Part shown: piece by piece, positions 1,344 through 62,335 of the stretch
How positions within the stretch are numbered: position 1 is the first letter of the stretch
Layout: each line of letters begins with the position of its first letter
Source of the DNA: an uncultured Lachnospiraceae bacterium
Lineage (GTDB): Bacteria > Bacillota > Clostridia > Lachnospirales > Lachnospiraceae
Length of the DNA: 64,000 nt
Direction of reading: 5' to 3'
Assembly: GCA_947172705.1 (NCBI GenBank)
Contig: CAMWCA010000007.1
Location: forward strand, 1-64,000
Notes under the pieces: generated by a model
Told to the model about the DNA's origin: nothing
The model's database searches: none
The model's input: only the letters and a program-made list of their open reading frames with translations
Translations under genes and position numbers: made by a program

Positions 1344-2660
1344 ATGGATATAAGGTTAAAAAAGGCGGCAGTGGGATTTGTGGGTTTTCTTATCTTTATG
1401 GTAGCATGTACGTTAATTTCCAAAAGCGTATATGCCTACCGCCTGCCCATGGTCAGTACCTGCCAGCCGGAATCCAAATATATAGAACATAAAGTGGAGG
1501 CGGAGGGAATCGTGATCCCGGGAGGGGAAAAGATCGTTACCTATCAGCCGGGGGTCAGGATCGCTTTGATGCTGGTTCACGTAGGCGACCGGGTGGAGGA
1601 AGGAGCAGAACTGTTTCAAATTGATCTGGAGGATTTAAAGGAGATCATGGAGGAAAAGAAAAACGAAATTTCTCAACTTTCCCTCCAGATCAACGCGATT
1701 TTGGAGAATCAGGAGCTTGCCCGGCAGAAAAAGGAGTTGGAGCTTGCACGCGCCCGGGAAGACTACGATATTACGGCAAGGCTTCAGGACACCCAGGTGG
1801 GAAGGGCAATGGAAAGCTATGTCCAGGCGGAAGAGGATCTGGAAGAAGAGGGAGGTCAGGACGCATTGCAGGACGCGCTGCAAAGCGCGGCATACGGGGA
1901 AGCGGATGCCAGGGCGGAACGGGACGAGGCGGTAAAGCAGGCGGAAAGAAAAGTGGAGGATCTTCTTTTGCCGGAGGAAATCTCCGCAGAGCTGGATCGG
2001 CTGAATCTGGAAAAATCCCAGCATTCCGCCAGGCTACAGGAATATCAGAAGATTCTTGAGGAACAGGGGATGGTGACGGCGCCTTTTGGAGGGGTGGTTA
2101 CGGAGATCCTCACAGGAGCAGGGGAGAGGGTTCCGGACACGGCGGTATTGCTCTTATCGGACGATACCCTTCCCTGCCAGCTTAAAGTGCTGCTGGATCA
2201 GGAGCAGAAAAAGTACATTGGTCTGGGGGATCAGGTTTCCATTAAAATGGAAGGAAAAAGCAGGGAACTGGAGAAGGAGATCGCTTACCTTGCAGAGAGC
2301 AGAAGCGTCCCGGAAAAATATGAGGCATTGATTGATCTTCCGGAAAAGACAGGGACGCCGGGGGAGGCGGGAACCATTTCCAAATCCCAGAAGGGTGAAA
2401 AATATAAATTCTGCCTTCCTATGGAAGCAATTCACACAGAGAACGACAGAAGCTATGTGTATGTATTGAAGGAACGGGAAGGAATTCTGGGGGAGGAATA
2501 TTACATAGACGAGATGAATGTAAAGGTGATAGATAAAAACGACCACTGGGCGGCTGTGGAGGAAGGGAGGCTGGAGAAGGAAAGCCGGATCATACTTTCC
2601 TCTACCGGAGAAATGAAAAGAGGGGATACGGTTCGGTGGGAAGGGGAAAATTTATCATAA
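1344..2660 (+). CDS. HlyD/MacA-like membrane-anchored adaptor protein
   Basis: About 438 residues. An N-terminal membrane anchor (VGFVGFLIFMVACTLI) is followed by the first half of a barrel-sandwich (lipoyl-like) domain, a long Glu/Lys/Gln-rich coiled-coil hairpin at about residues 90-230, the second lipoyl half (VTAPFGGVVTEI) and a beta-rich C-terminal part. This is the layout of periplasmic-adaptor/membrane-fusion proteins. The ATG at 1344 is preferred to the ORF-track start at 1221, which lies inside the permease gene; GAAAGG lies upstream at normal distance. Such adaptors usually partner MacB-type exporters, so its place behind sugar-import permeases is odd. No export ATPase is nearby. 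Confidence 0.75.
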   Translation: MDIRLKKAAVGFVGFLIFMVACTLISKSVYAYRLPMVSTCQPESKYIEHKVEAEGIVIPGGEKIVTYQPGVRIALMLVHVGDRVEEGAELFQIDLEDLKEIMEEKKNEISQLSLQINAILENQELARQKKELELARAREDYDITARLQDTQVGRAMESYVQAEEDLEEEGGQDALQDALQSAAYGEADARAERDEAVKQAERKVEDLLLPEEISAELDRLNLEKSQHSARLQEYQKILEEQGMVTAPFGGVVTEILTGAGERVPDTAVLLLSDDTLPCQLKVLLDQEQKKYIGLGDQVSIKMEGKSRELEKEIAYLAESRSVPEKYEALIDLPEKTGTPGEAGTISKSQKGEKYKFCLPMEAIHTENDRSYVYVLKEREGILGEEYYIDEMNVKVIDKNDHWAAVEEGRLEKESRIILSSTGEMKRGDTVRWEGENLS

Positions 2661-2666
2661 CAGTCC

Positions 2667-2977
2667 AGCCCTGCCGCAAGGAGCAGAAGCCTATCAGCAG
2701 CCTGGCTTTGCACCTGGGGGACATACATCCTTTCCAGACTTGTCTACGAATTGGATTTCACTAACAGAATGCGGGAAAATTTTCAAGCCGGTCGGGTCAG
2801 AGCCAGCGGCATCCGTGCCGCGAGGCTCTTAAAACCGCCGTCCTGGCGGTTTTGCCCTCGTTATAGGAGCATTCTGTAAGTGAAATTGCCAATTCTCCGC
2901 CAAAGCCTGGAAAGGATGTATGTCCCCCAGGTGCAAAGTCAGGCTGCTGATAGGCTTCTGCTCCTTGCGGCAGGGCT
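2667..2977. repeat. long imperfect inverted-repeat element, copy 1
   Basis: The gene-free stretch 2661-3092 is mostly one giant hairpin. The left arm (2667-2772) and right arm (2869-2977) are complementary over about 105 bases with few mismatches; outer ends read agccctgccgcaagg and ccttgcggcagggct. The inner arm ends read ggatttcactaacagaatg and cattctgtaagtgaaat. The 96-base centre holds a GC hairpin (gcggcatccgtgccgc flanked by gagcc/ggctc) and a second hairpin (aaaaccgcc/ggcggtttt). The inner ends and GC core recur in the copy at 21240-21556. No coding potential was seen. It could be a non-autonomous mobile repeat or a structured RNA. Confidence 0.85.
2831..2853 (+). terminator. terminator-like hairpin inside inverted-repeat copy 1
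   Basis: A perfect 9-base stem (aaaaccgcc / ggcggtttt) with loop gtcct ends in four T residues. Because both sides carry A/T tracts it could stop transcription in either direction. It lies 170 bases after the HlyD-like gene, inside the larger hairpin, so transcription of the permease-adaptor operon could end here. The T tract is short, so termination is only a possibility. Confidence 0.4.
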
Positions 2978-3092
2978 TAACTACAATGGTTTATCTATTT
3001 GAAAAAGCCGAGAACATTGAAAATAGATAATAGATACAGTATAATACAAAAGAATAAAGCAATGATAAGATGCTGGCAGGAGGGCTTTCTCT

Positions 3093-3725
3093 GTGCAGGA
3101 GATTTGTAATCTGGTTTTCTTCCGATCTATATTTTTAACTGTTTTATATTCGTTCATCGCCATCACAGTGATAAACTGTCTGTTGGCGGGGCTTTTGCAC
3201 CCCTATTTCGTAAAGGGAGGCTATCCTCCCCGTTTCCTGATCCTGCGTCCCAATCGAATCGACTTTCAGCAGAGCATGGAATGCTCCGCCTATGCCTGCG
3301 CCTTCGTGCTGCGGCATTATGGAAGAGAGGCATCGGGTCAGGCGCTGTACCGGGAAATGCCCTGCAAACGCAGAAATGGAACCGTGTATCCCAAGGGCAT
3401 AAAAAAGCTTTTGACCCGTCAGGGGCTGAATGCCGTGTACTGCACCGGGAATCTGAATGCCTTGAAAAGGGAAATCAGCAGCGGGAACCCGCCTATTGTC
3501 TTTATCCGGACCCGTCCCGGCAAAAACTGGCTGCATTTTGTCCCTGTAGTGGGTTATGACGAAACGCACCTTTTTCTGGCGGACTCTCTGACCGATTTGG
3601 CAAACTGTAGCGAAAATGGCTACAACAGGAAGGTAAGCAACAAGGATTTTTTAAAGCTCTGGAACACCTCCATGCTGAAAATGCCGCTGTACAGGAATAC
3701 CTTTTTTCGGATATCGGAGGTATAG
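3093..3725 (+). CDS. membrane-anchored C39-like cysteine peptidase family protein
   Basis: 210 residues. A hydrophobic N-terminal segment (residues about 8-35) is followed by a papain-like C39-type domain. The likely nucleophile is the Cys in QSMECSAYA, the histidine lies in WLHFVPVVGYD, and an Asp follows in LFLADS. C39-like domains cleave double-glycine leaders or act as extracytoplasmic peptidases; no ABC exporter is fused to it. The start is GTG: AGGAGG at 3078-3083 lies nine bases upstream and an in-frame TAA at 3066 excludes an earlier start. It stands alone downstream of the inverted-repeat element, so its substrate cannot be inferred. Confidence 0.7.
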   Translation: MQEICNLVFFRSIFLTVLYSFIAITVINCLLAGLLHPYFVKGGYPPRFLILRPNRIDFQQSMECSAYACAFVLRHYGREASGQALYREMPCKRRNGTVYPKGIKKLLTRQGLNAVYCTGNLNALKREISSGNPPIVFIRTRPGKNWLHFVPVVGYDETHLFLADSLTDLANCSENGYNRKVSNKDFLKLWNTSMLKMPLYRNTFFRISEV

Positions 3726-3849
3726 GAAGACATCTGTCTGTCAATGTTTCTTATGGCATTTAAAACGAATGACTGTCAACAGTTGTCTTTTGACCCCAGC
3801 ATCATGATAATAAGCTATATAAATTGCTGTATGATATGAGGTGATTATT

Positions 3850-4188
3850 ATGTGTACGGAAAGTCAGATGAATAATATATTAAAGGAAGTATCCCAATTT
3901 TATCGTTCTGTATATGGAGACAGTATTGTTGCCATTTATTTATATGGTTCGTATGCAAGAGGGGATTATAGCGATGAATCTGATATAGATATTACAGCGA
4001 TTGTCAGAGGAGACAGAGCGGAGTTACAAAAAAAGCTAAAGCAGATATGGGATAAGTCCGCTGATGTAGGATTGAAGAATGATATTATTGTTTCGCCTAC
4101 AGTAATACCGTTTGATGAATATGAAGAATACAAGGAAATACTTCCGTATTATAGAAATATACAGAAAGAGGGTAGAAAAATTGGATAA
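3850..4188 (+). CDS. minimal nucleotidyltransferase (MNT/MntA-like antitoxin)
   Basis: 112 residues with the polymerase-beta nucleotidyltransferase signature GSYARGDYSDESDID, i.e. GSx10DxD, with the two metal-binding aspartates intact. A third acidic residue probably lies in the ND segment near residue 78. The ATG at 3850 is chosen because GAGGTG at 3838-3843 is its ribosome site; the ORF-track GTG at 3841 lies inside that site. The stop overlaps the HEPN gene by 8 bases. Known MntA proteins adenylylate (AMPylate) a tyrosine of the partner HEPN toxin; that role is inferred here from family and linkage. Confidence 0.8.
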   Translation: MCTESQMNNILKEVSQFYRSVYGDSIVAIYLYGSYARGDYSDESDIDITAIVRGDRAELQKKLKQIWDKSADVGLKNDIIVSPTVIPFDEYEEYKEILPYYRNIQKEGRKIG

Positions 4189-4564
4189 CTTGATGAATTA
4201 CAGGCTTAATAATGCGAAAGAAAAGCTGGAATCAGCTAAGCTTTTGCTTGATGCTGGAAAATACAGGGATTCAATAGGGCGTTCTTATTATGCTATATTT
4301 ACAGCGGTTAGGGCTGTCTTGGCAAATGACCGAATGGATTTTTCGAAACATGCAGGTGTGATTGCTTATTTTCAAAAGGAATATATTAAGACAGGAAAGT
4401 TCGATGTAAAGTATTCGAGGTATTTGCAGACTGCATTTCAAATAAGGAACAGCTGTGATTACGATGACTTTTTTATAGCGTCTAAACAGGATGCAGAGGA
4501 GCAATTTCACAAGGCGGTGGAGTTTTATGATGAAATCTTTGCTTTCCTTTCAAATTCTAAATAA
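4181..4564 (+). CDS. HEPN domain protein (HepT-like toxin partner)
   Basis: About 127 residues, all-helical, with the HEPN pattern AKEKLESAKLLLDAG, RSYYAIFTAVRAVL and IRNSCDYDDFF. The last replaces the classical Rx4-6H RNase motif with R-N-x-x-D-Y, as in the UPF0332-type branch, so ribonuclease activity is uncertain. A TTG start at 4181 is preferred: GAGGG lies eight bases upstream, and the N-terminus (LDNLMNYRLNNAKEKL) fits the family. The alternative ATG is 4193. It overlaps the nucleotidyltransferase, as expected for a toxin-antitoxin pair, and a terminator follows directly. Confidence 0.75.
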   Translation: MDNLMNYRLNNAKEKLESAKLLLDAGKYRDSIGRSYYAIFTAVRAVLANDRMDFSKHAGVIAYFQKEYIKTGKFDVKYSRYLQTAFQIRNSCDYDDFFIASKQDAEEQFHKAVEFYDEIFAFLSNSK

Positions 4565-4571
4565 ATTACAC

Positions 4572-21239: not shown

Positions 21240-21556
21240 GAGTGTGGGCAGGGGATTACAGGGAAGGAGGGAGGAGGGGTGGGCAAAGGGATGGCAAAGG
21301 GCAATGGGGTTCCAGGGCTTTAGCGAGAAATTGGCAATTTCACTTACGGAATGGAGAAATCCCAGGGTGATTCCGCCATGGAGGGTGGAATCAGGAGCCA
21401 CGCGGCACGGATGCCGCCGGCTCCGACCCGTCCAGTTATCGACACCCTTTCCCATTCCGTTAGTGAAATCCAATTTCGAGATCAGCCCTGGAACCCCATT
21501 GCCCTTTGCCACCCCTTTGCCCACCCCTCCTTCCCTGTAATCCCCTGCCCACACTC
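21240..21556. repeat. long imperfect inverted-repeat element, copy 2
   Basis: Left arm 21240-21354 pairs with right arm 21452-21556 over more than 100 bases with very few mismatches and one indel of about 7 bases. Inner ends (caatttcacttacggaatgg / ccattccgttagtgaaat) and the core hairpin (gcggcacggatgccgc within ggagcc/ggctcc, 21394-21424) match the copy at 2667-2977 in reverse orientation. The outer arms do not match copy 1. The rest of the gap 21120-21780 holds the sigma-28 promoter and leader of the next gene. The element lies between two divergent genes, so it is not a simple terminator. Confidence 0.85.
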
Positions 21557-37082: not shown

Positions 37083-37292
37083 GCAAAATCCCCGTATCTT
37101 TATGGCGGCTGGAGCCTTCGAAAAGACATTTGTGCGAACGACTTTTGCACCATGGAGATGAGACTCAAAAAACACAGAAGCCAATGCTTCTGTGTTTTTG
37201 TATCAAGAGGCTCATCGGAATGCCCGGTGCAACGGAGCGAGCGCGAATTCTTTTCAAAGGCTCCAGCCGCCATAAAGATATGGGGATTTTGC
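37083..37292. repeat. long inverted repeat 3 between convergent genes
   Basis: gcaaaatccccgtatcttta.. (37083-37126) pairs with the 37249-37292 arm over 44 bases with two mismatches. Pairing continues patchily inward (ttgcacc, gatgag..ctc) to an apical perfect hairpin, aaaaacacagaagc / gcttctgtgttttt around caat (about 37169-37199). It sits between the convergent membrane-protein and prs genes, so the apex could terminate transcription from both sides. It shows no clear sequence match to the two related copies at 2667 and 21240. Confidence 0.75.
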
Positions 37293-50989: not shown

Positions 50990-52762
50990 ATGGATATTTT
51001 TAGCATACTAACGATGGTTGGCGGTCTTGCCTTGTTTCTGTATGGAATGGAGGTTCTTGGGGACGGTTTGAAAAAGGCGTCCGGGGGTAAGCTGGAGATT
51101 ATTTTGGAGAAGCTTACATCCAACAAGCTTATGGCGATTCTCCTGGGGGCGGGCGTAACTGCCGTGATCCAATCCTCATCGGCAACTACTGTTATGGTGG
51201 TAGGTTTTGTCAATTCAGGGATTATGAAGCTTTCCCAGGCAGTAGGGGTCATTCTGGGAGCCAATGTGGGAACTACGGTGACGGCATGGCTCTTAAGCCT
51301 GACAGGGGTGGAAGGCTCAGGCATGTTCCTTCAATTTTTAAAGCCCTCTTCCTTTGCGCCGATTTTAGCTTTTGTGGGTGTTGTGATGCGCAGCATGAGC
51401 AAAAGGGAAAAGCATAAAGTAGCCGCTACCATTATGATTGGTTTTGCGGTGCTTATGACAGGGATGGAAACCATGTCAAATGTGGTGAAACCCCTGGCGG
51501 AAAATTCTGATTTTACAAATATATTGCTGATGTTTTCCAATCCGGTACTGGGCATGCTGATCGGTCTTGTGCTGACAGCGATCATTCAGTCTTCATCGGC
51601 TTCCGTAGGTATTCTTCAGGCACTGTGCGTTTCAGGCGCAGTCAGTTATTCCACTGCAATTCCCATTATCATGGGACAAAATATTGGCGATTGCGTAGCG
51701 GCTCTTCTCTCCAGCGCGGGAGCAGGCAAGCAGGCAAAGAGAGCGGCTTTGATCGGCTTATACTATAAGATCATAAAAGCAGTGGCTTTTATGGCGGTTT
51801 TCTATGCCCTGAATGCGGTAATCCATTTTGAATTTTTAAGCCAGCCGGCAAGCGCGCTGGGGGTTGCAGTGATTCATACCACCTTTAACGTAGCATCGGT
51901 TATTCTCATGTATCCTTTTACGTGGGTATTGGAAAAGCTGGTATATCTCACCATTCCCGAGAGCGAAGAGGAGACTCAGGCGATCAGCGCGGTAAAGAAG
52001 GAAATCCAAATTCTGGACCCTCGTTTTTTAAATACTCCAAGAGTTGCCCTGGAGCAATGTAAAAATGCTGCTGTGGATATGGCGAATTATGCCAGGGATG
52101 CGTTGTTTATGGCGATCCGTATGCTGGATCGGTTCGATAAAAAGGAAGCGGGCAAGGTGATCGAGCTGGAGGAACTTGTGGATCATTATGAGGATGAACT
52201 GGGTTCCTATTTGATCAAGTTAAGCAGCAAGCATCTGACGGCAAAGGACAGCCAGGAGCTTTCTGTGCTGCTTCACTGTATCGGCGATTTTGAGAGGATC
52301 TCTGACCATGCCATTAATATTATGGAATCTGCAAGGGAAATGTATGAGAAGGAAATGGCGTTCTCAAGAAAAGCGGAAGAGGAGCTTGCCATTTTCACAG
52401 GAGCTGTGAAGGATATTATCAATACCTCCATTCAGGTATTCCAACAGGAGGATCTGAAGCTTGCCTGCACGGTAGAACCTATGGAGGAGGTCATTGATTA
52501 TCTGAATTCTGAGATCAAGAAGCGTCATATCAAACGTCTTCGCAAAGGGAAATGTACGATTGAGATGGGGTTTGTGCTCTCAGATATTACCACAAACTAT
52601 GAAAGAGTATCAGATCATTGCTCCAATATTGCCCTCTGTCTGCTTCAATTAAATGAAGAGAATTTTGATACCCATGAGTATCAGGACAATCTGACCAGCA
52701 AGGACAATGTGGTTTTTGCAGCAGAAGTAAAAAAATTACGGGAGCAATATGTGCTTCCATAA
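50990..52762 (+). CDS. Na/Pi cotransporter family protein with PhoU-like C-terminus
   Basis: 590 residues. The first 320 residues hold about eight membrane segments and the paired signature repeats GAGVTAVIQSSSATTVM (near 55) and LTAIIQSSSASVGILQ (near 195), typical of NptA-type Na+/phosphate symporters. The C-terminal 230 residues form a PhoU-like helical domain (CIGDFERISDHAINIMESA and later YERVSDHCSNIALC). It should import phosphate, or export it, in a regulated way. It stands 81 bases after mfd with TACAAT as a possible -10 box. Confidence 0.9.
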   Translation: MDIFSILTMVGGLALFLYGMEVLGDGLKKASGGKLEIILEKLTSNKLMAILLGAGVTAVIQSSSATTVMVVGFVNSGIMKLSQAVGVILGANVGTTVTAWLLSLTGVEGSGMFLQFLKPSSFAPILAFVGVVMRSMSKREKHKVAATIMIGFAVLMTGMETMSNVVKPLAENSDFTNILLMFSNPVLGMLIGLVLTAIIQSSSASVGILQALCVSGAVSYSTAIPIIMGQNIGDCVAALLSSAGAGKQAKRAALIGLYYKIIKAVAFMAVFYALNAVIHFEFLSQPASALGVAVIHTTFNVASVILMYPFTWVLEKLVYLTIPESEEETQAISAVKKEIQILDPRFLNTPRVALEQCKNAAVDMANYARDALFMAIRMLDRFDKKEAGKVIELEELVDHYEDELGSYLIKLSSKHLTAKDSQELSVLLHCIGDFERISDHAINIMESAREMYEKEMAFSRKAEEELAIFTGAVKDIINTSIQVFQQEDLKLACTVEPMEEVIDYLNSEIKKRHIKRLRKGKCTIEMGFVLSDITTNYERVSDHCSNIALCLLQLNEENFDTHEYQDNLTSKDNVVFAAEVKKLREQYVLP

Positions 52763-52858
52763 GAAGTTTTTCTGAGTTAAAGTCCGTTTTATGGGACTGC
52801 CATAATGTTATTCTGATAATAGATGAAGAAAATTATCGAAATGACAGGAGGCAGTATG

Positions 52859-61596: not shown

Positions 61597-62295
61597 TCAT
61601 GCGTCTTGGCTGTGCAGCAGGCGATATTTCATTTCGGCAAGGGTCCAGTCCTCCGGCGTGTCAATGTCCTGTACCTCAAGCTCATCAAGAACAAGGGGAA
61701 GAAGCTTTTCTACGTCTGTAGTGCCCGCCTTGAAAAAGGCATCTGTGCGGCAGGCATAAAACTGACCGCAGTCATGATAAATTTGGGGAAGGTCCTGGCT
61801 GCGTGCAGCGGCATATTGGGGGAACTCCCTCTCCACGAATCCGCTGCTGTTGATCACAAGCCCCCGCTGAGGCGGGTAGGAAAAGGGAACCACAGGCATC
61901 ACTGAGTCGGCTTGGCCAAGAAGCTCCATGGCGCCGCGGAGCCTCTGGGCGCTTAGGAAAGGAGCCGTAGGATAAATGCAGCAAAAAGCGTCAAACTGTC
62001 GTCCCATTGCCTGATATGCCTTAAGCACTTCCATAATAACATCATCGGTGGAGGCGTAATCCCCTGCATTTTCCAGGGAGCGGAAAAATGGAACTCTGGC
62101 GCCGGCGCTTTTTGCTACCTCTGCAATTTCGGCATCGTCAGTGGATACCATAACTTCTTCAAAAATACCGGCTTCCTTTGCCGCTTCTATAGAATAGCAT
62201 ATGATAGGCTTTCCGCAAAAATCTCGTATATTCTTTCGGGGAATTCGTTTGCTGCCGCCCCGTGCGGTTATGATTGCAATGTTTTTCTGATTCAT
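61597..62295 (-). CDS. pseF: pseudaminic acid cytidylyltransferase
   Basis: 232 residues, the normal size. The nucleotide-binding start IAIITARGGSKRIPRKNIRDF, then STDDAEIAEVAKSAGA and CCIYPTAPFLSAQRL are typical of CMP-nonulosonate synthetases of the PseF branch. It activates the sugar acid as its CMP derivative. It heads the minus-strand operon with a promoter close upstream and lies 51 bases before the PLP enzyme. Confidence 0.88.
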   Translation of the reverse strand: MNQKNIAIITARGGSKRIPRKNIRDFCGKPIICYSIEAAKEAGIFEEVMVSTDDAEIAEVAKSAGARVPFFRSLENAGDYASTDDVIMEVLKAYQAMGRQFDAFCCIYPTAPFLSAQRLRGAMELLGQADSVMPVVPFSYPPQRGLVINSSGFVEREFPQYAAARSQDLPQIYHDCGQFYACRTDAFFKAGTTDVEKLLPLVLDELEVQDIDTPEDWTLAEMKYRLLHSQDA

Positions 62296-62335
62296 GGCTT
62301 TCCTGCCTGTTTCTTAAGATTTCTTAATACTACCG

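Follow-up and report, generated by a model that had tools for sequence, protein, structure and literature searches.

TwoAYGGAY cores within giant, dispersed and polymorphic palindromes of Lachnospiraceae genomes

Two giant hairpins with a common core

The window analyzed here, a stretch of 64,000 nt from the genome of an uncultured Lachnospiraceae bacterium (G000), contains two giant hairpins, copies 1 and 2, both laid out as one long inverted repeat that encloses a core of about 165 nt with two short hairpins (Table 1). An inverted-repeat search placed the arms of copy 1 at 2662-2741 and 2903-2982 (80 nt, 95% complementary) and those of copy 2 in two segments, 21240-21271/21525-21556 (32 nt, 100% complementary) and 21269-21319/21484-21534 (51 nt, 96%). 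The computed RNA folds reach -235.8 kcal/mol (z -22.2) for copy 1 and -244.4 kcal/mol (z -22.0) for copy 2, and no shuffled sequence equaled either value. Coordinates, arms and core thus match those given in a preliminary description of the two elements. Its statement that the arms exceed 100 bases also holds, and the arms lie mostly outside the Rfam model of the core and represent the new part of the element.

Table 1 Giant hairpins, cores, loops and hairpin-less sites in the window.
Feature	Position	Strand	Description
Copy 1, whole giant hairpin	2667..2977	- (core reads on minus strand)	311 nt; ~80-nt arms outside core, 95% complementary
Copy 1 core, RF01731 TwoAYGGAY	2741..2902	-	74.6 bits, model 1-168
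Copy 1 loop CACGGATG, CsrA-type CANGGANG	2810..2817	-	Closes second core hairpin; sequence and motif count
Copy 1 loop CAGGACG, CsrA-type	2839..2845	-	Closes first core hairpin; sequence and motif count
Copy 2, whole giant hairpin	21240..21556	+	Two arm segments, 96-100% complementary
Copy 2 core, RF01731 TwoAYGGAY	21320..21484	+	80.6 bits, full model
Copy 2 loop CATGGAGG, CsrA-type	21377..21384	+	Sequence and motif count
Copy 2 loop CACGGATG, CsrA-type	21406..21413	+	Sequence and motif count
Hairpin-less site where congener G302 (UBA7093) has copy C56:162681	52762..52775	.	Flanks 84-88% identical; ~390 bp vs 12 bp
Hairpin-less site where congener G302 has copy C56:152741	62295..62311	.	Flanks 82-84% identical; ~377 bp vs 16 bp

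In cmscan, both cores are full-length matches to RF01731, TwoAYGGAY, with scores well above the gathering cut-off of 43 bits, and they have the sequence and structure of that family. The preliminary description knew of no named element with this architecture and conceded that a match to a catalogued element would lower the novelty. For the core this is the case. TwoAYGGAY was described in 2010 as probably an RNA, not cis-regulatory, from human gut metagenomes, gamma-Proteobacteria and Clostridiales (Weinberg 2010, PMC2864571), and has been in the catalogue since then without demonstrated function. According to a later proposal, CsrA is the protein that binds its two loops (PMC4333381). RF01731 belongs to Rfam clan CL00106, to which E. 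coli CsrB also maps. However, the Rfam model ends at 168 nt, while the stem goes on here for tens to about 150 pairs, and unlike the element as catalogued, the copies studied here are dispersed and polymorphic, with arms that alter in mirror image. A known core is present here in a form that had gone unrecognized, as part of large palindromes that are dispersed and polymorphic and in which the arms are mirrored and the CsrA-type loops fixed. As a description, this finding is well supported. Two core subfamilies were found among the copies.

A sub-threshold match of positions 21268-21534 to the plant microRNA family MIR2118 was discarded because its score is far under the gathering cut-off and the long hairpin explains it.

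Copy number, site occupancy and genomic context

When the core was searched with a covariance model, as the preliminary description had recommended, far more than two copies were found. The genome containing the window has 36, all above the RF01731 cut-off, and congeners have up to 52. Of the 38 genomes of the genus, 18 are positive (0 to 52 copies per genome), and in a survey of 299 Lachnospiraceae genomes, mostly one per genus, TwoAYGGAY was present in 45. With the exception of one copy at a contig end, all copies of the window's genome have arms that reach tens to about 150 pairs past the model. The median extension is 84 pairs (53 measured loci); in other genera the arms are shorter (median 36). 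About 10 of the 36 copies, compared with an expectation of about one, are located less than 400 bp from a contig end, and the copy numbers are thus probably underestimates. Giant hairpins seem to break assemblies, and contigs of the congener G305 do break within a hairpin. An origin from phages or plasmids was dismissed because their records contain no match; 24 viral hits to 17-mers are probably fortuitous.

Comparison of orthologous sites revealed differences in both directions. At the copy 2 site, G302 (Lachnospiraceae UBA7093) has 20 bp in place of 376 bp between flanks that are 82-88% identical. Copy 2 is cleanly absent from G302, G309 and others, and two further copies of the window's genome (L034 and L001) are lacking in G302. 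Reciprocally, the window has hairpin-less sites where G302 carries a copy (Table 1), and at one site a divergent pair in G302 is matched by a single member of that pair in the window's genome. Between these two genomes, one of five tested sites from G000 and one of four from G302 were shared. Note that some members of the second core subfamily escaped a first profile HMM and that the flags for occupied sites therefore also use gap lengths. Copy 1 shares a ~1.9-kb segment (2644-4571) with genes for a C39-type peptidase and a HEPN-domain protein. This segment is replaced by 28 bp at the syntenic place in G302, and sequences like it lie elsewhere in other congeners.

Deletion scars, in which one arm persists but the core is missing or the opposite arm incomplete, reveal a route by which giant hairpins are lost. 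The preliminary description also considered a DNA hairpin processed by a nuclease, which is possible; what the single-arm scars show is that the hairpins are deletion-prone. An internally deleted element of this kind was found in G302 (contig C62, L153 ~2407-2540). At the copy 2 site, G305 possesses a giant hairpin of its own and G333 retains one arm only (L156), so that the difference at copy 2 may reflect gain or loss.

No target duplication was obvious at five or more junctions, the flanks of which are only 75-95% identical, and a terminus common to the whole family was not identified. Neither was a cognate enzyme, Y1_Tnp (PF01797) being the sole candidate sought. This domain had no match in G319 (98% complete, 43 copies) nor in G306, and an IS200-type Y1 transposase was rejected as the mobilizer because it is missing from a genome with 43 copies. 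A transposase between the members of one close pair was likewise dismissed, since the genes residing there are rpsT and one for a trypsin-like protease (named from translations). The earlier suggestion of a non-autonomous mobile repeat agrees with the behavior of the family, i.e., dispersal, 0 to 52 copies among congeners and reciprocal presence and absence, but neither a mobilizing enzyme nor a target duplication was found.

With respect to neighboring genes, no significant preference in orientation was apparent in co-directional gaps (18 sense vs 25 antisense, p = 0.36). A crude promoter model gave no enrichment upstream (5') over downstream (3') of the arms, where scores were no better than downstream, and thus no support for an own promoter. 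A role as 3'-UTR or terminator was set aside in view of the lacking orientation bias and the lack of a consistent T-run. Close TwoAYGGAY neighbors are nearly always divergent, with their 5' ends facing each other (about 20 pairs, none convergent; e.g., L007, L016, L214, L218), and spacers range from 9 bp to several hundred bp. This arrangement is reminiscent of REPINs (PMC3116915), although Y1 transposases are not required here.

Mirrored arms and fixed loops

Between copies, arms that can be aligned diverge by a mean of 20%, whereas the two arms within one copy mismatch at 6%. We read off mirrored and unmirrored changes, for the arm region only, from alignments of copies at sites common to two species. 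At three shared sites the counts were 11 vs 1, about 10 vs 2 and 3 vs 0, and the mirrored changes include multi-base changes and indels. A fourth shared site with short arms had no mirrored change, and some compared pairs were left out because their cores are about 60% divergent and the copies not orthologous. Arms that evolve independently cannot yield mirrored changes of this kind. Mirroring could result from selection for RNA pairing, but G-U intermediates would then be expected.

These intermediates are nearly absent. In the core stems, two-sided changes occurred at 25 of 28 predicted pairs, with 362 two-sided vs 18 one-sided cells (table sums), while G-U made up 0.8% of the standard pairs and also 0.8% at covarying pairs. 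For the TPP riboswitch from 30 congeners, treated in the same way as a control, G-U amounted to 7.6% and to 14.6% at covarying pairs. Arm mismatches in total, with 164 G-T and 141 A-C, are close to strand-neutral, although the first set alone was weakly skewed to G-T (105 vs 75, p 0.03). Taken together, the near-absence of G-U and the mirrored arms suggest that the pairing is to a large extent preserved at the DNA level. One arm would be templated by the other, and template switching is established as a process that homogenizes the arms of inverted repeats (PMC8604942, PMC6649704). The possibility that arms arise by inverted duplication of the adjacent flanking sequence was rejected because they have no similarity to hairpin-less sites at the tested loci, apart from one borderline case that is probably a scar. 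Purines prevail in the 5' arm, where G clearly outnumbers C.

The loops behave differently and stay fixed while the stems turn over. Each copy has two CsrA-type loops, both on one strand. The consensus recognized by CsrA is a GGA-type hairpin-loop motif, CA(N)GGANG. By script, this motif was present in 81 of the 83 first loops and in 75 of the 83 second ones (156 in all), and the other eight second loops have the shorter form CAGGA(N)G, which brings the CsrA-type loops to 164 of 166. GGA itself is kept in 165 of 166 (82/83 first, 83/83 second). Recognition by CsrA would give such strand-specific conservation. The survey points in the same direction, with CsrA found in 44 of 45 TwoAYGGAY-positive genomes compared with 110 of 254 negative ones (Fisher p 1.7e-13); as flagellin occurs in all 45 positive genomes, this association is not specific to CsrA. 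In three genomes with copies and FlhA (G302, G333 and G168), CsrA and FliW were not detected, but all three are incomplete drafts. For the copies, a predicted role through CsrA is plausible.

Interpretation and comparison with known systems

The observations are, in our judgment, best and probably correctly explained by a dispersed family of mobile palindromic repeats, the central 168 nt of which are the TwoAYGGAY element, with templated arms and copies that are both gained and lost. One arm would serve as the template for the other during replication or repair, by template switching as in quasi-palindromes, and such templating would preserve the complementarity of the arms even as they diverge. 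Copies would spread by means of some mobilizer and could be lost through deletion of the hairpin. We are less sure about the part played by the loops, where we consider the following about as likely as not: the conserved strand, once transcribed, may bind a CsrA dimer via its two loops, so that the copies would act as dispersed decoys or place neighboring transcripts under CsrA.

A conventional regulatory RNA would offer a different explanation. The copies would then be CsrA-sequestering sRNAs or UTR elements in the manner of CsrB, the arms very stable stems selected at the RNA level, and the copies would have arisen by ordinary duplication. The strict CA(N)GGANG loops, the co-occurrence with CsrA, the Rfam clan shared with CsrB and the published proposal of CsrA binding (PMC4333381) all fit. 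Such an origin is nevertheless unlikely, given G-U pairs almost absent compared with 7.6% in TPP, nearly balanced G-T and A-C mismatches in the arms, no promoter enrichment, no orientation bias to genes and a turnover of sites between species at about 86% identity. The structured RNA considered in the preliminary description gains from the catalogued reading and the fitting CsrA-type loops, but loses ground where G-U depletion and mirrored arms suggest that pairing is largely kept up in the DNA.

Gains are called into question if the family is old and only loss takes place, i.e., if many ancestral hairpins were deleted repeatedly and mobility has ceased. We consider this quite improbable. Although shared sites exist and scars are present in G302 C62 and at the copy 2 site in G333, the sharing between G000 and G302 (1/5 and 1/4) would demand about 140-170 ancestral copies, when no genome has more than 52; gains are thus likely, on the basis of a small sample of nine sites. 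More improbable still is that the folded hairpin serves solely as a single-stranded DNA substrate for a recombinase or HUH nuclease, as attC or REP/REPIN do, and that RNA has no part in it. Strand-neutral pairing together with G-U depletion, the lack of a clear target duplication and the frequent close inverted pairs with facing 5' ends would suit such a substrate. On the other hand, Y1_Tnp genes are missing from G319 and G306, no enzyme is linked to the copies and the loop motif fits the consensus of an RNA-binding protein.

Starting from the mobile, arm-templated palindrome that we favor, a more far-reaching version is conceivable, though rather doubtful. The main conserved information of the palindrome might be the predicted CsrA-binding loop pair, tens of CsrA decoys might have been spread through flagellated Lachnospiraceae, and what looks like RNA covariation might mostly be DNA copying from arm to arm and not selection for RNA pairing. 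If this were true, covariation alone would be no proof of RNA function for such families. Two questions have now become testable: can a dispersed repeat in Firmicutes act as a sponge for CsrA, and can palindrome homogenization at the DNA level produce strong base-pair covariation? The latter bears on the acceptance of candidate structured RNAs from covariation alone, and near-absence of G-U would provide a simple diagnostic.

Likenesses to several known systems are evident. With the CsrA-sequestering sRNAs CsrB, CsrC and Rsm, TwoAYGGAY shares GGA in C-G-closed hairpin loops and clan CL00106. However, the sRNAs unite many sites in one molecule, whereas TwoAYGGAY has two sites per copy over dozens of loci, no promoter was seen and CsrA binding is only predicted. 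REPINs and REP elements (PMC3116915) are also dispersed intergenic palindromes without an enzyme of their own, often in inverted pairs, but TwoAYGGAY copies are several times longer, have a large conserved core and do not depend on Y1 transposase in this genus. Like MITEs, they are short, non-coding and dispersed and have long inverted repeats. In contrast to MITEs, neither a terminal sequence common to the subfamilies nor a target duplication or a matching transposase was found, and the arms match within a copy and differ between copies. Long arms that stay perfect as their sequence changes are known from the mitochondrial coding palindromes of Nematomorpha, for which template switching has been proposed (PMC6649704). 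The family described here differs in being bacterial, defined and dispersed and in having a conserved, functional-looking core.

A third giant inverted repeat of the window (37083-37292; 44-nt arms, 95% complementary, z about -13) is not a TwoAYGGAY element and has no match in Rfam. Stretches related to it occur in other examined pieces of this genome and of G302, and it thus represents a second dispersed hairpin family.
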